Shown in pieces: positions 3,193-17,491 of a stretch of 39,508 nt of DNA; the stretch's first letter is position 1; each line of letters begins with the position of its first letter. The DNA is from an uncultured Clostridia bacterium (GTDB taxonomy: Bacteria; Bacillota; Clostridia; Peptostreptococcales; Anaerovoracaceae). The DNA is taken from assembly GCA_934277495.1 (NCBI GenBank), contig CAKQUI010000003.1:1-39508 (forward strand), written 5' to 3'. Both the position numbers and the translations under genes were made by a program. The notes under the pieces were generated by a model. It was not told the origin of the DNA, searched no databases, and saw nothing but the letters and a program-made list of their open reading frames with translations.

Positions 3193-5112
3193 TCATATCG
3201 TTGATGTCGTGTCTGTGACGGCTTGATCCTGATACTGTCTGAAAGCGGATCTGAGCTTTACTTTCTTTCCGGAAAAGGCGATCCCGAGTTTCAGTATATT
3301 CTGAGCGCCTTCTTTCCGGAGCTCCGTGTCATATTTTTTGTTCTCTATCTGCTGCAAAGCAGTTTCAGCCAGGTCGTCAAGCGATTCCTGACTCAGACCG
3401 GCTTTCCATTTCAACTCGATTATTATTCCCGGATATTTCTTCTTTCTTGGAAACATACTGATATCATATCTTCCGTTTCCTGATTCCCGGTTGGACTTTA
3501 TTTTATACTGATTGTCCATCATAGAGATCAGTCCCAGTACAAGCCCGTGATAAAAACCTTCGGCGCCTGCATCATAAAAACTGATGGTCCTTTCCATATA
3601 CTCGCATATCGCTTTCTGAAGTCTTGCAAGATCGCCTGTATAAAGGCTTTCGGATATATTGTCTGCAGTTGTTCTTGTGACGGCGCCTGTTTCCAGCAGA
3701 TGTGTCAGTATCTCAGACTTATAGACCGCTGATATCTCTCTGTTCGGTATCATGACTTCGCAAAGGTACGAGCCGTCTGCCTGGATCTCTTTTGTTGGTG
3801 TTTTCAGATACCCTGCCATGAGCAGCAGGCTGTATATGTTGGCGGGGTCCTCGGCAAGGGAACGGTATACGACGTTCTGATCTATCCTTGCGATGACACG
3901 TTCTCCCTGCAGGAGTGCGTAAAGTTTCCTTGTCACTTCATCTGTAGCAGTCCTCAGAACATCTTCCAGTATCTCGTTCTTTCCTGTGTTCACCCAGTAT
4001 GCCTGCGGGATGCAGCCCTTTGAAATGTAGTTTATGACTGACCATGGATTGTATATCTCCCTGTTTCCGAAAATGTAGCCGTCATACCATTCTTTCAGTT
4101 CCTCGGCTTTGTTCCGGACGCCGTAGTATTCCAGCATTTCATCCACTTCATGGCACGTAAACCCGAAAAATTCATCATATCCGTCATCCATTACAGAGTC
4201 CACGACAAGATTGTTGAGCCCACTGAAAATACTTTCCTGTGCTATCCTCAGTATACCGGTGAGGAATCCATAGGAAATGTTCCGGTTGTCTTTGAATGCA
4301 CCTGAAAAAAATATCCTCATGAAACTTATTATCTCATCGTAGAAATCCCGGGAGTACCCTTCCTGCACAGGTGTATCGTATTCATCTATTATGATGACCG
4401 GAGCTACGCCATAATGTTCGTTCAGCATTTTTGAAAGATTTTCAAGTGCAGACGTCAGTTCGACTTCCGTTGCAGTACCCTCGGTCATTCTCGTAAAATA
4501 AGCTTTTTCGTAATCTGCGATACGATCGCTGTCGTAAAGCTCACGGTGTCTGTCATACTCCGCCTGCAGAAGACTCCGTATTTTATCAAGGGTATCGTTC
4601 CAGGTGCTGAATTTAACGTCTTTGAACGACAGGAATATCACCGGATATCTGCCCTGATGGGAACGGTATTCGCTGCCGCATTCCCATATGGCTTTGTCAT
4701 AGAAAAAACGGCCTGTATCATCATCGGATATTTCAAAAAAAACTCTGAGCATATCCATGTTCAGTGTCTTGCCGAACCTGCGTGGCCTTGTAAACAGAGA
4801 AACCATCGGCTTATGATCAAGGAATTCCTTTATCATAAGCGTTTTGTCGACATAATAATATCCGGATTGTGCACGTATATAATCTGAGATGCCTACAGGA
4901 AGCGCTTTCTTTTCAGCCCTCGCATGTTCACGGGCATAACTTCCTGATGAACGGCGGAGGTCATCAGGGCGCTCTGCATCGTCAGGTATCCGCCATCTCC
5001 CTTTCTCTTTGAAAGCTCCTTTGATCTTCCCCTTTTTGCACATATCATTGACTGTACGTCCTGAGAGTCCCCATTCTGCAGCCTTTTCCTTGCATGTTTT
5101 CATATCTGTCAT
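3193..5112 (-). CDS. AAA-ATPase-like / PD-(D/E)XK nuclease-like protein with N-terminal helix-turn-helix
   Basis: The 639-aa protein has three parts. Residues 5-47 read as an excisionase/MerR-type helix-turn-helix (L-S-G-R-T-V-N-D, then G-K-I, then G-R-W-R-I-P). Residues about 70-350 are the AAA-ATPase-like domain (PF09820 type), with a Walker A-like R-P-R-R-F-G-K-T (109-116) and Walker B I-I-D243-E-Y-D246. The C-terminal quarter carries a PD-(D/E)XK-like core (Y-D-I-S-M-F ... I-I-I-E-L-K-W-K). Relatives of the ATPase-nuclease pair are common in gut anaerobes and Bacteroidetes, often in many copies and of unproven function. The added DNA-binding domain is less usual. Two starts are possible: Met1 (5112) with AGGAA upstream, or Met4 (5103) with GGAG nine bases upstream. 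The promoter is overlapped by repeated sequences, suggesting autoregulation (inference). Confidence 0.9.
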   Translation of the reverse strand: MTDMKTCKEKAAEWGLSGRTVNDMCKKGKIKGAFKEKGRWRIPDDAERPDDLRRSSGSYAREHARAEKKALPVGISDYIRAQSGYYYVDKTLMIKEFLDHKPMVSLFTRPRRFGKTLNMDMLRVFFEISDDDTGRFFYDKAIWECGSEYRSHQGRYPVIFLSFKDVKFSTWNDTLDKIRSLLQAEYDRHRELYDSDRIADYEKAYFTRMTEGTATEVELTSALENLSKMLNEHYGVAPVIIIDEYDTPVQEGYSRDFYDEIISFMRIFFSGAFKDNRNISYGFLTGILRIAQESIFSGLNNLVVDSVMDDGYDEFFGFTCHEVDEMLEYYGVRNKAEELKEWYDGYIFGNREIYNPWSVINYISKGCIPQAYWVNTGKNEILEDVLRTATDEVTRKLYALLQGERVIARIDQNVVYRSLAEDPANIYSLLLMAGYLKTPTKEIQADGSYLCEVMIPNREISAVYKSEILTHLLETGAVTRTTADNISESLYTGDLARLQKAICEYMERTISFYDAGAEGFYHGLVLGLISMMDNQYKIKSNRESGNGRYDISMFPRKKKYPGIIIELKWKAGLSQESLDDLAETALQQIENKKYDTELRKEGAQNILKLGIAFSGKKVKLRSAFRQYQDQAVTDTTSTI

Positions 5113-5178: not shown

Positions 5179-5225
5179 CTCTGCGTTCGCAATATATACC
5201 GCAAAATGCCGGGTATATTGCAAAC
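5163..5225. promoter_or_regulatory. Operator-like repeats: two direct and one inverted copy
   Basis: The 13-mer gttcgcaatatat occurs exactly at 5163-5175 and 5185-5197 (starts 22 bp apart, about two helical turns). A third copy in inverse orientation with two mismatches is at 5213-5225. Copy 1 overlaps the -35 and spacer of the minus-strand promoter and copy 2 sits directly upstream. This is the arrangement expected for a repressor site; the N-terminal helix-turn-helix of the adjacent gene is the obvious candidate binder (inference). Confidence 0.65.
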
Positions 5226-5285
5226 ATGACTGCGCAGGGCAGGGGCGTGCCGGAGGTGTGTATTCATGGTCGTGACTGACGATGT

Positions 5286-5780
5286 ATGTTCCGTGGATCG
5301 CCTGTAAGGAAAGCGATACAGGTGCTCTGCAGCTGGCTGAGCCGTTGTGGGGAATACGAGGATATTCCATTGGATTTTGAAGTCGGTTTTATGAAAAACA
5401 AGGAGGAAGCTGTTCGCAGTATAAATTCTATTGCATGGGAAAATATATGTCTTGATGCAGCAGGAGATTTAGACGTTTTCCTTGTTAAAAACCGTTTGGA
5501 CAGAAAATATGACTGGAATACGGTTTGTGACGAAATTGAGGAAAAATATATCAAACCAATTTCAGAAAAAATAAAAGAATCCGTTGAGCATAATCTGTTA
5601 CCGGAACGTGTTATGATAGATGTCAGGTTCAATCTATGGAAGATTTTTAAATATCAGTGGTATTCTGGGACAGGATTCGTATCAGATTTTCACACTAAAA
5701 TGACGAGCATATATCTTGCAGGATATCTTCCATGTGGATACAAGATAGCTGAAGAAAAAGGAATTTTTATGATTTATTGA
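5286..5780 (+). CDS. Immunity-protein-like small protein, possibly 5'-truncated or frameshifted
   Basis: The open frame gives 164 residues, predicted cytoplasmic and acidic. From about residue 8 onward (R-K-A-I-Q-V-L-C-S-W-L) it reads as a continuous alpha-rich protein. The C-terminal part, with Y-L-A-G-Y-L-P-C-G-Y-K followed by a short hydrophobic end, resembles the 'iy..GhiPCGw......g.livY' ending of small cytoplasmic immunity proteins of polymorphic-toxin loci. That resemblance is from memory and not searched. The ATG at 5286 has no good ribosome binding site. A well-placed GGAGGTG (5252-5258) instead serves an ATG at 5266 in another frame, which stops after 13 codons. The first seven residues also fall in GC-richer DNA than the rest. 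A lost or frameshifted N-terminus is therefore likely. Confidence 0.6.
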   Translation: MFRGSPVRKAIQVLCSWLSRCGEYEDIPLDFEVGFMKNKEEAVRSINSIAWENICLDAAGDLDVFLVKNRLDRKYDWNTVCDEIEEKYIKPISEKIKESVEHNLLPERVMIDVRFNLWKIFKYQWYSGTGFVSDFHTKMTSIYLAGYLPCGYKIAEEKGIFMIY

Positions 5781-5799
5781 TTAAAAAGGCAGGAAAAGT

Positions 5800-6108
5800 A
5801 TGAGAAGCGTATCGGATACACAGAAAGACAGACTGGGATCGATCCTGAAAGAGCTTTTGAATGTCATCGAAGAAATAAGAGAAGAAGATGACTTCTATCT
5901 TATAGAGCAGAATAAAATTGATGTAATGTCATGGTTATCTGCTGTAGCGACAGTGGATACTATGGATTCTCTGGAATTGATTGCGGAAAGTATAAAAGAA
6001 AAAATATATAACTTTTATTACGATGATCTGAGTAGTCATTATCTGGACTCGAAGCGAAAAGAACTCATGATGGAGTTTCTTGATGAAATATTTGGTGTTT
6101 TAAATTAA
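5800..6108 (+). CDS. Small acidic hypothetical protein
   Basis: The 102-aa product has no signal peptide or membrane helix and is predicted helical, with many Glu/Asp (E-E-I-R-E-E-D-D). It starts 19 bases after the previous stop with AGGA upstream, so it is probably in the same transcript. I do not recognise a family. Its size, acidity and position between two immunity-like genes fit an accessory or immunity role, but that is inference. Confidence 0.65.
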   Translation: MRSVSDTQKDRLGSILKELLNVIEEIREEDDFYLIEQNKIDVMSWLSAVATVDTMDSLELIAESIKEKIYNFYYDDLSSHYLDSKRKELMMEFLDEIFGVLN

Positions 6109-6170
6109 TGCACGTTTATGGCGATAGTTGCTGATTCAATATGTTTAAAGTTATGTGATAGGAGAAAATA

Positions 6171-6605
6171 ATGTTATTCAAAAAGAGCAAAGTAGGTTTT
6201 TCAAGCGATATAATAAAGATGGCTGATGAGATCGTTGAGTCATACTGCAGAGCAAACAGTACTGGTTTTGAAGAGATTTCAGAGTTAGAACGTCAGGTCC
6301 TTGCAGTGTACTGCTTTGGCGTATCGGAGGGAGTTCGTCAGGGCAAATATGAAAACATATCTAATAATGATGTTGAACGAGGGATAATCGATTTGTTTGA
6401 ACAGGTTTTTAAATATTCGAGAAAGCAGTCTCAGGATTTTTTTGAACTGATCGTTGACAGCCTGCAATCTGACAATGGTGAAAATACTTATTCGATAATA
6501 ATACACAGAGGGCTGGATGGATATTTTCTGTGTATGGAAAATAAGCAGAGCAAAGCAGTCGATGCTGTCTGCGACATGATCAGTATTTTGCAAAGACAAA
6601 ATTAG
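6171..6605 (+). CDS. Hypothetical protein, immunity-like; in-frame UAG may shorten it
   Basis: The 144-aa cytoplasmic protein starts after taggag (about eight bases upstream). The body reads as a helical domain (F-S-S-D-I-I-K-M-A-D-E-I-V-E near 11-24; V-Y-C-F-G-V-S-E-G-V near 46-55), a shape I associate with uncharacterised proteins found beside toxin/immunity genes. The frame stops at a TAG (6603-6605). Reading through it continues in frame for 19 more codons of coiled-coil character (Q-Q-L-E-K-D-I-A-A-L-K-A-E-L-K) to a TAA at 6663-6665, only 13 bases before the next gene. This looks like a recent nonsense change in a longer protein, though UAG readthrough is another option. Confidence 0.65.
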   Translation: MLFKKSKVGFSSDIIKMADEIVESYCRANSTGFEEISELERQVLAVYCFGVSEGVRQGKYENISNNDVERGIIDLFEQVFKYSRKQSQDFFELIVDSLQSDNGENTYSIIIHRGLDGYFLCMENKQSKAVDAVCDMISILQRQN

Positions 6606-6678
6606 CAGCAGCTTGAAAAAGATATCGCAGCATTGAAAGCAGAATTGAAGACTATCGTAAAATAACAGGAGAATATAT

Positions 6679-7449
6679 ATGAGTTTATTTAGCAGACGCA
6701 AGAAGAATAATGACACTGTGAATAAGGAGACAGCTGCAGCAGGACGTTTCAGTCGCTCGGTTTTTGACATCAGACACGATATCGACAGGAGCAGCTGGTG
6801 GCAGGTTTATTCTGCCTGCCTTGGCAAAGTCGCAGCTATGCAGGATGCCTGCAGCGTCCATGTTGTAAAAGACCAGGACTGGTATCTCGATTTGAAAAAC
6901 GGAACGATATCTTTCGGCAAGGATTCTTATCCGATACAGTTCATTGGATCAGAATCTCAGCTCAGCGATACCTGGCAATGGGGATATAAGAATGTGAACG
7001 GTCTTGATGAACGCTTTCTTAGTCTGGCATATGATATGTATGAGAAAGGCAGCGAATGGGGACTTGAGCCTCTTACGATCGAACAGTTCCCGCTGGATGA
7101 TGTTTTCAATGGACATAATATAGCGACTGTGGCATGCGGGATATCCGAAAAGCCATATTGCTATTACAGGGCTTCCGGAAAAGATCATTCTATATTCGTT
7201 GCATTTTCAGGGGTGCCTGAAATAATATCAGAGCCTCTTGGTATTTCGGAGTTTGCCAATACTGCGGCAGACTGCCTTGAAAATTTCAATGTAGATCACA
7301 ATATATTCCTGGAAAGCTTTTTGTCATGGAATGGTACTTCATATGATTATGATGGAAAGGATCTGATCGCACACTTTTCTTCCGACCTTGAGTTTTCGTT
7401 TGAAAAGGCAGATGAGTTCTGGAGAGTGGCAGGCATAAGATCTCTGTAG
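6679..7449 (+). CDS. DUF6882-like hypothetical protein
   Basis: The 256-aa soluble protein starts with a short basic head and has AGGAG seven bases upstream. Residues about 45-215 contain W-Y-L-D-L-K-N-G-T-I-S-F-G followed by P-I-Q-F-I-G-S-E-S and W-Q-W-G-Y-K-N. This is the typical text of the DUF6882 family ('w.ldl..g.l.f....f..q.lGt.s....W.W.w.n'). Function is unknown; such genes are often found in immunity-like clusters next to secreted toxins, here with three other small genes. The family assignment is from memory. The gene ends before a bidirectional terminator shared with htrA. Confidence 0.7.
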   Translation: MSLFSRRKKNNDTVNKETAAAGRFSRSVFDIRHDIDRSSWWQVYSACLGKVAAMQDACSVHVVKDQDWYLDLKNGTISFGKDSYPIQFIGSESQLSDTWQWGYKNVNGLDERFLSLAYDMYEKGSEWGLEPLTIEQFPLDDVFNGHNIATVACGISEKPYCYYRASGKDHSIFVAFSGVPEIISEPLGISEFANTAADCLENFNVDHNIFLESFLSWNGTSYDYDGKDLIAHFSSDLEFSFEKADEFWRVAGIRSL

Positions 7450-7528
7450 CTGGTCTCATTATCACATGACAGCACCGTTTATTCCGCACCTGAACATATC
7501 GGTGATTCGGGTGCAGCTTCACACGACA

Positions 7529-14298: not shown

Positions 14299-15228
14299 AT
14301 GACAGTAAAAGAAAAACCAGTACTCGTGATAATGGCTGCAGGAATGGGTTCCAGATACGGCGGACTCAAGCAGGTGGATAAAATGACAGAAGCAGGAGAG
14401 ATAATCCTCGATTTCTCTCTTTACGACGCTATGATGGCAGGCTTTACGAAGGCAGTTTTCATCATAAGAGAAGAACATCGTGATATTTTCCGTGAACTCG
14501 TCGACGAGAGAGCCGGCAGATTCATGGAGATAGAATATGCATACCAGGCGCTGGACGATATCCCTGAAGGTGTGAAGATCCCTGAAGGCAGGGAAAAACC
14601 ATGGGGTACATCCCATGCTGTGCTGGCTGCAAGGAACATCATAAACGGACCTTTTGCAGTCATCAACGCCGACGACTACTACGGACCCGGCGGATTCACA
14701 CAGATGTATGACTATCTCTGCAGCGCGGCAGACGGTGACGTGTACGACTGCGCTATGATAGGATACAAGCTTGAAAACACCGTGACAGAAAACGGACACG
14801 TTGCCAGGGGCGTATGCCAGATAAGCGATGAAGGATATCTGGAGCAGGTGACGGAGCGCAAGCAGATCATGATGCGCCCTGAAGGTATATGCTATACAGA
14901 AGACGACGGAAAGACATGGGTGAAGCTGCCGGACGATACGGTGGTATCCATGAATTTCTGGGGATACCCGGCAGGACTGATGAAAGAGCTGGAAGACGGA
15001 CTGCCTGAGTTTTTCAGGACAGTGATCCCGGAAAATCCGCTGAAAGGCGAATACCTGCTGCCGGAAGTGACAGACCGCCTCATCAAAGAAGGCAGAGCCA
15101 CAGTGAAAGTCCTCCCTACACACGACAAATGGTGCGGAGTGACATACCAGGCAGACAAGGAAGACGTGAAGAACATACTCCAGTCAAAGAAAGACAAAGG
15201 TGAATATCCGGATAAACTCTGGAAATAG
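14299..15228 (+). CDS. Sugar nucleotidyltransferase-family protein
   Basis: With the ATG at 14299 (AAGGGGAAG upstream) the protein has 309 residues. The NTP-transferase signature A-A-G-M-G-S-R-Y-G-G-L-K-Q (about residues 12-24) binds the nucleotide, and I-N-A-D-D-Y-Y-G near 120 carries the metal-binding Asp. Members transfer an NMP to a sugar phosphate or related substrate; the exact substrate is unclear. An in-frame ATG at 14233 lacks a site. Its last 23 codons and the next bases are duplicated at 16585-16665, so the 3' end is an insertion junction. Confidence 0.88.
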   Translation: MTVKEKPVLVIMAAGMGSRYGGLKQVDKMTEAGEIILDFSLYDAMMAGFTKAVFIIREEHRDIFRELVDERAGRFMEIEYAYQALDDIPEGVKIPEGREKPWGTSHAVLAARNIINGPFAVINADDYYGPGGFTQMYDYLCSAADGDVYDCAMIGYKLENTVTENGHVARGVCQISDEGYLEQVTERKQIMMRPEGICYTEDDGKTWVKLPDDTVVSMNFWGYPAGLMKELEDGLPEFFRTVIPENPLKGEYLLPEVTDRLIKEGRATVKVLPTHDKWCGVTYQADKEDVKNILQSKKDKGEYPDKLWK

Positions 15229-15237
15229 CACTGATAA
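15157..15237 (+). repeat. Direct repeat copy A (3' end of nucleotidyltransferase gene)
   Basis: These 81 bases match 16585-16665 except at 15177 (a/c) and 15201 (t/c). Both differences are silent in the coding frame. Similarity ends sharply on both sides. The two copies bound an AT-rich segment of about 1.35 kb. Confidence 0.95.
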
Positions 15238-15240
15238 TTA

Positions 15241-15290
15241 AAAGGGCTTTTCATTAACAAATGATATGTTGATGAAAAGTCCTTTTTTAT
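15241..15290 (+). terminator. Strong terminator after the nucleotidyltransferase
   Basis: An A/T-rich stem pairs aaagggcttttcatta (15241-15256) with the complementary stretch ending in aaagtccttt (up to about 15285), followed by a T-run. It lies outside the repeat and differs from the terminator that follows repeat copy B. Confidence 0.85.
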
Positions 15291-15461
15291 TGGTTTTGCT
15301 TGAACGATAGTTGGTAGAGTGAAGATATGATTTTGAAGATGTATTTTGCAAATTTAAGTGTGTTCTAAAATATTAATAGTTTTGTTAAAAAAGACTTGAC
15401 AGTTTTGATGAGGGGTGGGGGGTAGACTATATGTAAATAATTATAGATTTGGAGGAGAAAA

Positions 15462-16097
15462 ATGAAGGGTTATAGAAAATGTTTGATCTTTGCGATGATA
15501 ATGATGTTAGTTTTTAGTCCGTTATCAGTTTCGGCGGCATCGAAATATGGATCATATGGGGGTAAAACATATTATTATACGATATCAAAAGCAAAGAATG
15601 TGAGAATAGAAAAGCGAGGGAAAAAAGTAGGGGACCATTTGAAGTATTGGATGAATGGTACTGTGAAACTAATTGTAGATTATGCAGCAGGGAACCTTAT
15701 GATTCCTTTTAGCATAGTAGAGACTATGGTAGATGACGACAGCGTGAAATATAGTGAAAAGTCGTACTCTTCATATGTGTATCAGGCAAAATATACAACA
15801 AGAAATATTTTTTACTATACTAATAAATCAAAGAAGCATAAAAAAATCGTACTTACAGATGAAAAAGGAAAGGCAGATGTATTTTATGAATTCCATCCAG
15901 TGGGCATAGGCTTTAAAAAGTCTACATATTCAAAGAAACTTAAAAGTAATAAAAGCATGAAAACAAGATATTATGACAATAAAAGCAGGAATTTAAAGCG
16001 CTGTGGAATTAATGCAAAACATAAATCAAGGGAAATATGGTCACTGTCAACTGAATTGTTAACGGAAAAGTGGAAAAAAATTAATTATGTGATATAA
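15462..16097 (+). CDS. Secreted, basic, Tyr/Lys-rich hypothetical protein
   Basis: The 211-aa product has a clear signal peptide (about residues 1-26, cleavage after V-S-A). The mature part is very basic, with many Lys and Tyr, two short hydrophobic patches near 68-83, and no Cys pattern except one. I recognise no family. GGAGGAG lies six bases before the ATG. The DNA is much more AT-rich than the flanks, with AAA/ATA/TAT codons dominating, which supports recent acquisition together with the next gene. A TTGACA (15396-15401) lies upstream, but the nearest plausible -10 (TAGACT, 15423-15428) is 21 bases away, so the promoter is uncertain. Confidence 0.75.
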   Translation: MKGYRKCLIFAMIMMLVFSPLSVSAASKYGSYGGKTYYYTISKAKNVRIEKRGKKVGDHLKYWMNGTVKLIVDYAAGNLMIPFSIVETMVDDDSVKYSEKSYSSYVYQAKYTTRNIFYYTNKSKKHKKIVLTDEKGKADVFYEFHPVGIGFKKSTYSKKLKSNKSMKTRYYDNKSRNLKRCGINAKHKSREIWSLSTELLTEKWKKINYVI

Positions 16098-16128
16098 TTT
16101 AATGAAAATAGAGCCGTAGGAGAATAGA

Positions 16129-16572
16129 ATGAAGAAAAAAATTATTTGCATAATAGCTATAATTCTTTTGGGTGCAGTAGTGGCTTTTTTTGCGACAGGC
16201 AGAACAAGTTTGATAAAACAAATCGATAAGAATCTTGGTTCTTCAGATAACTGGAAAATTCAATCCATCGAAAAAATGGAAAAAGATAAAGATCCTGTAG
16301 TTCATGATATCACTGAAGAGGCGGATGGATACGATGAACTTGTAAAAGAGATAGAAAAGTCGGATTTGAAACGTGCAAAATATGAACCGGGAATGGAAAT
16401 AATTTCACCCTTGTATACAATGACCGTATCAGATGGACAGGAATATGTTACGTTTACGGTGAATGATAAAAAAGAAATTCATGTAAATCAAAAGGATGTA
16501 ACTTATAAAATAACTGACGAAAAATCAGGATTATACAACTCGCTTGAGCAGGTATATGATAGTGCAAAATAA
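16129..16572 (+). CDS. N-terminally membrane-anchored hypothetical protein
   Basis: The 147-aa product starts M-K-K-K followed by one hydrophobic helix (about 5-24). A polar, probably beta-rich extracellular domain follows (Y-T-M-T-V-S-D-G-Q-E-Y-V-T-F-T-V near 98-113). There is no lipobox Cys. The site taggag lies seven bases before the ATG. It starts 31 bases after the secreted protein gene and shares its AT-rich composition, so the two probably form one unit. A partner or protective role for the secreted protein is inference only. Confidence 0.7.
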   Translation: MKKKIICIIAIILLGAVVAFFATGRTSLIKQIDKNLGSSDNWKIQSIEKMEKDKDPVVHDITEEADGYDELVKEIEKSDLKRAKYEPGMEIISPLYTMTVSDGQEYVTFTVNDKKEIHVNQKDVTYKITDEKSGLYNSLEQVYDSAK

Positions 16573-16584
16573 GTAACGGCCTGA

Positions 16585-16665
16585 AAGGAAGACGTGAAGA
16601 ACATCCTCCAGTCAAAGAAAGACAAAGGCGAATATCCGGATAAACTCTGGAAATAGCACTGATAA
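16585..16665 (+). pseudogene. Direct repeat copy B: orphan 3' fragment of a nucleotidyltransferase gene
   Basis: This fragment encodes the same last residues (K-E-D-V-K-N-I-L ... D-K-L-W-K, stop) as the gene ending at 15228, but with no upstream coding region. The two base differences are synonymous (Ile ATA/ATC and Gly GGT/GGC). It is therefore a gene remnant once under protein-level selection, not a random duplication. Confidence 0.9.
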
Positions 16666-16687: not shown

Positions 16688-16734
16688 AAAAAGACCACTG
16701 ACAATGTGCATGAAACACAGTCAGTGGTCTTTTC
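16688..16734. terminator. Bidirectional terminator following repeat copy B
   Basis: A perfect stem pairs gaccactgac (16693-16702) with gtcagtggtc (16720-16729), with flanking A-run and T-run. It can end transcripts from both the plus-strand island and the minus-strand glucosaminidase gene. It was probably the original terminator of the nucleotidyltransferase gene. Confidence 0.85.
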
Positions 16735-16762: not shown

Positions 16763-17491
16763 TCATTTCAGCCTGTCCAGGGCCTGATTGTGATGTGTGC
16801 TTATCACTGAATAGTAGTTCGTCATATTTCTCGCCACCTTGTCGTCCCATGTGGAGCTGGCGGCGTATCTTTTGTTGACGTCGGAAATGGTCTTGCCGCT
16901 GTAGAGGCTGCCGCCGGGGCTGAGATAATTCTGAGCCAGCGCCTTCGACACGACGTCTATACACTCAGCCTTCGATGAGAAACCGCTGTTTCCGAAGCCG
17001 AACATGTTGTTTGGTCTGAAACACATGGTGCCGTTGGCGCTTTCCAGCGACGCTATCGCCATGACGAAGAGGCAGTTGACACCGTAGTCCTTCTCTGCTT
17101 TGAGGAACGCATCTTCGAGCCCCACAAGGTTGTCCCTGGTGACCAGCTTCAGGTCCGACACCGTGACGCCGCTTGGTTTGCTGACGTCCATGCTGCGTAT
17201 CTGCTCGTTGCTGTATGCAGGTATCGCCTCCGCATCGTAGACTTTGTTCACTGTGGATTTTCTCAGGGACGTGGAAAGATCCACCTCCTCGGCTGAATCC
17301 AGACTTTTCTGCAGCAGTCTGCTGCTGGCCTTTGCAGCGGAGCTGTTTATCATATCGGTCTCGACCTGTATGCCGTATGCGAACCCTGCAGCAGATCCCG
17401 CCAGAACCAGCACAGTCAGCAGTATCACCTGCCATGAGATGAACCTCGGTTTGCCATTGAATGAATAAGTTCTAGTATTTCTGTTTTTCAT
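16763..17491 (-). CDS. Membrane-anchored glucosaminidase-domain protein (GH73-like)
   Basis: The 242-aa protein has a short cytoplasmic head, one transmembrane helix (about 20-42), a linker, and a glucosaminidase domain from about 120 to 240 (PF01832 type). The likely catalytic Glu lies in I-A-S-L-E-S-A-N-G (about 146-154), and N-N-M-F-G-F-G is the family-typical following motif. The conserved Y-A-A-S-S-T-W-D-D comes near the end. It should cut the glycan chains of peptidoglycan at the outer face of the membrane. It has its own promoter at 17546-17574. Confidence 0.85.
   Translation of the reverse strand: MKNRNTRTYSFNGKPRFISWQVILLTVLVLAGSAAGFAYGIQVETDMINSSAAKASSRLLQKSLDSAEEVDLSTSLRKSTVNKVYDAEAIPAYSNEQIRSMDVSKPSGVTVSDLKLVTRDNLVGLEDAFLKAEKDYGVNCLFVMAIASLESANGTMCFRPNNMFGFGNSGFSSKAECIDVVSKALAQNYLSPGGSLYSGKTISDVNKRYAASSTWDDKVARNMTNYYSVISTHHNQALDRLK

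Follow-up and report, generated by a model that had tools for sequence, protein, structure and literature searches.

A two-gene insert of foreign composition between direct repeats of a nucleotidyltransferase gene end in an uncultured Clostridia bacterium

In a minimal mobile element, a set of genes is swapped by homologous recombination in the flanking core genes. CIMEs (cis-mobilizable elements) are decayed ICEs or IMEs that keep attL and attR. IMEs integrate at the 3' ends of housekeeping genes, leave the gene whole, and are flanked by direct repeats generally of 8-60 bp (PMC5704250). A homologous anchor combined with an illegitimate join has been proposed for effector-immunity modules of Vibrio, in which an old 3' end is moved downstream (PMC5361080). 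In a study of conjugation in Escherichia coli, 56 of 60 recombinants gave a PCR product of a partial duplication of the target gene, and the duplications (109-950 bp in the 14 that were sequenced) were explained as single crossovers (PMC3240628).

We analysed a stretch of 39,508 nucleotides (hereafter the window) from an uncultured Clostridia bacterium of the Anaerovoracaceae (contig CAKQUI010000003.1 of assembly GCA_934277495.1). It encodes a sugar nucleotidyltransferase, the 3' end of whose gene is found a second time beyond an insert of two genes, which we call insA and insB. The features of the locus, in window coordinates, are as follows:

14299..15228, + strand: sugar nucleotidyltransferase gene (NTP_transferase, 309 aa), intact; Pfam PF00483, 32 bits, cut-off 21.2
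15157..15237, + strand: copy 1 of the direct repeat, made of the last 72 nt of the intact nucleotidyltransferase gene and 9 nt past its stop
15240..15286, + strand: terminator-like hairpin of 20 pairs with a T-run; the stem begins at the third base past copy 1
15462..16097, + strand: insA, 211 aa; by inspection of its sequence, it has an apparent Sec signal peptide
16129..16572, + strand: insB, 147 aa, with a hydrophobic N-terminal helix
16585..16665, + strand: copy 2 of the direct repeat, starting 12 nt past the insB stop
16689..16733, no strand assigned: stable hairpin that separates copy 2 from the convergent glucosaminidase gene and is probably the native terminator shared with that gene
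16763..17491, - strand: convergent glucosaminidase-domain gene, the native downstream neighbour; PF01832, 30.5 bits, just over the cut-off of 30.2

The two copies of the repeat are identical at 79 of 81 bases. Their edges are sharp, and no homology extends past either of them. The mismatches, at 15177 (A/C) and 15201 (T/C), leave exact runs of 20, 23 and 36 bp. The window contains 22 directly repeated 20-mers, all inside this repeat, and the longest repeat expected by chance in the window is about 15 nt. In silico crossovers between the copies, placed at four points, left the nucleotidyltransferase protein unchanged: both mismatches are silent. The chance of this is 0.07 if the nine non-coding bases are taken as silent, and 0.02 for two silent changes within the coding part. 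The silence of the mismatches is thus evidence of little force. These observations bear out what an earlier note on this DNA had said of the repeat and of its mismatches. The same note derived copy 2 from another, once-functional homologous gene, and here we differ. A better reading of copy 2 is that of the displaced original end of the host gene, and copy 1 is probably the incoming end: since copy 2 is followed by what is probably the native terminator and then by the convergent glucosaminidase gene, it is probably the resident one. As a test of which copy is foreign we also examined codon use in 15 host genes; it favoured neither copy, since ATA is the commoner codon for Ile and GGT is rarer than GGC.

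The DNA between the copies is compositionally foreign. Its GC content (15238-16584) is 31.9%, against 48.3% for the whole window, which agrees with the AT-richness noted before. At third codon positions the two insert genes have 31% and 27% GC, against 56% in the nucleotidyltransferase gene. Most of the insert is filled by the two open reading frames, 31 nt apart, which conform to the earlier description of two exported or anchored proteins. The terminator also described there corresponds to the hairpin placed 2 nt after copy 1 (-24.3 kcal/mol), whose stability was equalled by 0 of 200 shuffles. At the other end, the 12 nt from the insB stop to copy 2 leave scant space for remnants of mobility genes, except in the region before insA. 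The presence of target copies on both sides of the insert would suit an event akin to transposition in which the target duplication is unusually long. We found no transposase and saw no inverted repeats between the insert ends, and 81 bp is far above the 8-bp duplication that PMC5704250 gives for DDE elements; we consider such an event quite unlikely.

We compared the locus with 49 genomes of one genus, including the metagenome-assembled genome of Candidatus Allocopromorpha excrementigallinarum (G004). The nucleotidyltransferase was matched in 45 of the 49, nearly at full length in 43, with a best identity of 74-75%. By this similarity, the window probably belongs in or near that genus. The comparison of gene surroundings covered 46 distinct loci with a nucleotidyltransferase homologue, in this genus and in other genera of the family. 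They came from a scan of species genomes (8 loci) and from whole-genome searches, were taken from among the matches listed, and include part of the genus loci. At each locus we inspected up to 1.5 kb past the gene, and a second gene end was sought with blastn at an E-value of 1e-5.

The gene end was single at all 46 loci: none had a second copy, and neither insA (0/46) nor insB (0/46) was found behind the gene. insA was equally missing from the 49 genus genomes, a set without a positive control. The earlier note had named an arrangement shared by all relatives as the outcome that would refute its reading; this outcome is not what we saw. The first recognised neighbour was the convergent glucosaminidase gene at 15 loci, a DUF5105 gene at 15, the glucosaminidase gene in the opposite orientation at one, the gene for ribosomal protein S6 at one, and none of these at the remaining 14. 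When one repeat unit was removed in silico, the nucleotidyltransferase gene stayed intact and 106 bp were left to the glucosaminidase gene. Of the 15 relatives with a convergent glucosaminidase gene, 11 agree with this predicted gap, in that the tblastn match starts 4-118 bp past the stop (the others have 464, 598, 854 and 855 bp), and this again points to copy 2 as the likely resident end. Behind the nucleotidyltransferase gene, some relatives carry other genes or a wider gap (8 loci inspected, none from the same species). In some congeners the nucleotidyltransferase gene is followed by tandemly duplicated glucosaminidase genes (L003 6940-8302, L027 and L077).

The foreign composition and the single gene ends thus support, at the level of the genus, an insertion at the nucleotidyltransferase 3' end. 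It should be noted that identity in the nucleotidyltransferase reaches only about 75% in the closest relatives; the empty site is therefore documented across species and not across strains. The idea of a site-specific cassette, which the earlier note had attached to the insertion, fared less well. It had envisaged a hotspot with different cargo between the copies; none of the 46 loci carries other cargo between two copies of the gene end, no integrase lies within 40 kb of the gene on its contig among the matches listed for 49 congeners, and the 81-bp repeat had no match in collections of phages, plasmids and viral contigs. Neither the hotspot nor the site-specific cassette is therefore supported.

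The relatives also bear on two other explanations. The 79/81 identity of the copies would fit a local duplication followed by deletion, in which a longer tandem copy was mostly lost and only its 3' end stayed behind the insert. We judge this unlikely, as copy 2 joins the native flank directly and the insert, whose composition is foreign, is missing in all 46 relatives examined. An assembly artefact that fused two genomes appears highly improbable: both flanks of the insert are syntenic with relatives, three contigs were counted for the insB of the window, and a 99% identical insA occurs on a contig of 844 nt, although all of these contigs may derive from the same source as the window.

We favour, with a probability of roughly 0.45, the addition of a foreign two-gene unit via short homology at the gene end, by general recombination. 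A compact unit comprising the terminator, insA and insB would have been joined behind the nucleotidyltransferase gene by the general recombination machinery of the cell. The incoming DNA would have borne the 3' end of the same gene, probably from a relative that already had the unit behind it, and this end would have paired with the resident gene in an additive insertion. There are two possible routes: a circular molecule may have entered by a single crossover, or one side may have joined by homology and the other illegitimately. Single-crossover entry of a circle that bears a short part of the target gene would leave exactly such a scar; the E. coli recombinants (PMC3240628) are a precedent for it, and the Vibrio proposal (PMC5361080) is a related model. 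The nucleotidyltransferase gene remains whole, since it is completed by copy 1 and then followed by the new terminator, whereas transcription of insB could read through to the native terminator. The scar is indeed additive, with the gene end doubled and nothing native visibly lost, and the partial duplication of the anchoring gene that additive insertion predicts is present beside the insert. Some points count against homology-driven recombination. The expected donor arrangement, a nucleotidyltransferase gene followed by insA and insB, was not found in the genomes searched, the empty site is seen between species only, and a repeat that starts within a gene and continues beyond its stop suits an integrase site equally well.

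The latter point leads to the known systems. The locus resembles a CIME, in structure only, by having cargo between repeats that include a gene 3' end, with the gene kept whole, and by an insert devoid of integration or transfer genes. It could accordingly be a decayed or trans-mobilised element, whose repeats are the attachment sites of a tyrosine recombinase, with the integrase lost or acting in trans. We regard this, the main rival of the reading that we favour, as possible but doubtful. In its favour, the repeat spans from the gene interior past the stop codon, and PF00589 recombinases occur in 49 of the 49 congeners (these will include housekeeping Xer proteins). Moreover, one genome (G195) has a nucleotidyltransferase paralogue of 45% identity (C27:16206-17096) with a PF00589 match (C27:22250-22768) some 5 kb away; this match could be that of a housekeeping Xer gene or part of a mobile element. 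On the other side, the insert consists of insA and insB only, without visible remnants of an integrase and with spacers of just 2 nt and 12 nt at its ends. Neither protein has a Pfam match over the cut-off, hence no integrase is visible in the insert, as the earlier note had also remarked. Nor was one seen elsewhere in the window, among 16 open reading frames scanned with Pfam and the remaining translations, which were read by eye. No relative with an integrase at the site was found among the 46 loci and the matches listed in congeners. Among the matches listed for the 49 congeners, whose contigs are often short, none lies less than 40 kb from the nucleotidyltransferase gene on the same contig; three share a contig with the orthologous gene (in G273, G248 and G215), all at least 40 kb away. 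The repeat is unmatched in viral contigs, phages and plasmids, and its 81 bp exceed the 8-60 bp given for IMEs in PMC5704250.

Like a minimal mobile element, the insert lacks mobility genes and is set among conserved chromosomal genes. Unlike in such an element, whose exchange should leave no doubled gene end, the end is doubled here, and no alternative cargo lies between repeats at this site in the 46 loci. The Vibrio modules (PMC5361080) share with our locus a two-gene unit at an anchor and an old gene end moved downstream; here, however, the duplicated gene encodes an enzyme of metabolic type and not an effector, and is intact. We rejected an integron gene cassette because the repeat lies in a coding gene end and folds weakly, without a strongly paired attC-like hairpin (z of -1.59 for the 81 nt, a stability that 13 of 200 shuffles equalled or exceeded). 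A prophage, plasmid or satellite was also rejected, given that insA had no tblastn match in phages or plasmids and that neither insA nor insB had a confirmed match in viral contigs.

The locus looks like an ordinary but clear horizontal acquisition. It offers a clean, apparently recent join of foreign DNA to a conserved gene, free of visible mobility genes, and its scar reveals how the nucleotidyltransferase gene survived the insertion. Strain genomes could tell which of two means, general recombination or borrowed integrases, moves small modules of this kind.

The pairing of insA and insB is conserved, though rare in whole genomes. We found 11 database relatives of insA, one of which is the 99% identical protein on the 844-nt contig. 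insB used alone as a query found only itself, and a query with both insB sequences (from the window and from the genome G113) gave 14 proteins, the insB of the window included. The longest contigs of the insA and insB relatives have equal sizes (1573, 1317 and 1515 nt), and judging by these sizes the two genes probably share one contig in three further database cases. insB was matched in one of 349 genomes of the family, where the pair occurs together at a different locus, and in one of 391 genomes of the class, by a weak match (E 1e-5, partial, with an internal stop). insA-like proteins occur in 4 of 296 genomes, of which only G113 has an insB match.

In G113, the insA relative (60% identical) adjoins the insB relative (50%), and no nucleotidyltransferase match (E 1e-60) lies in a 19-kb stretch around the pair. 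The pair is flanked by direct repeats of 73 nt, 93% identical and unrelated to the repeat of the window. A third copy precedes a gene pair that resembles, by eye, a toxin-antitoxin module, and the repeat has 10 matches in the genome, some of them partial. The element (L014, L047-L056) has the core AAGTGTGTACTGAAGGGGAATTTT followed by a CATAAT-like box, and stands mostly before gene starts. A box of this kind ahead of a gene start is typical of a promoter. Given that both features occur at most of the sites listed, we read the repeat as a dispersed, shared promoter-like element with the look of a regulon signature. Its flanking of the pair may therefore be a coincidence. Since this repeat is promoter-like and differs from that of the window, we rejected a repeat-bounded cassette array of the G113 type. 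The motif AAGTGTGT, common to the regions upstream of insA in the window and in G113, was rejected as a regulatory site because 190 of 2000 shuffles scored equally high.

Both known contexts of the pair have long direct repeats, which is suggestive, with two cases only. On this basis insA-insB might be a minimal surface module that enters repeatedly at short homologies, a non-autonomous cassette lacking its own recombinase; we hold this to be improbable, and the same goes for the attendant idea that such a module would settle between long direct repeats made from the local gene end or promoter. A repeat with 10 genomic matches also fits recombination at any short homology present, as in the general recombination that we favour.

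We flag insA-insB as an unnamed conserved pair of an exported and an anchored protein. Neither protein of the window had a match over the cut-off in Pfam or NCBIfam, and the relatives of insA gave only stray Pfam matches, with E-values of 0.01 or worse. The predicted structure of insA is beta-rich and of low confidence (pLDDT 61), and had no structural match at an E-value of 0.001. The insB model is of moderate confidence (pLDDT 79, pTM 0.72). Its best match is 4r7r, a putative lipoprotein of Clostridium perfringens, with a probability of 0.99 and an E-value of 0.027 that is short of a firm threshold; the TM-score is 0.47 when normalised to the length of the query and 0.54 when normalised to that of the target. 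A search of insB against PDB sequences up to an E-value of 1 gave only two nuclease S1 sequences (0.59). The two proteins probably act jointly at the cell surface. Perhaps insA is an antagonist and insB its membrane-bound protector, a guess from their anatomy only.

Two longer exported-looking proteins of another genome, G048, resemble insA (322 and 291 aa; L016 142-1110 and L019 1073-1948). Their C-terminal parts match residues 20-205 and 23-204 of insA at 28-29% identity. As these matches cover most of insA, it may belong to a wider unnamed family. Two database proteins, P0009 and P0011, have an N-terminal part as in the insA relative P0002, followed by divergent sequence; they could be recombinants, frameshifts or misassemblies.

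The window has a second AT-rich island, at 5200-7450, where the GC content goes down to 35%. No direct repeat of at least 28 nt flanks it. The island carries an Imm48 immunity gene (6171-6605) and a DUF6882 gene (6679-7449), and adjoins an AAA-ATPase/PD-(D/E)XK gene (3193-5112).
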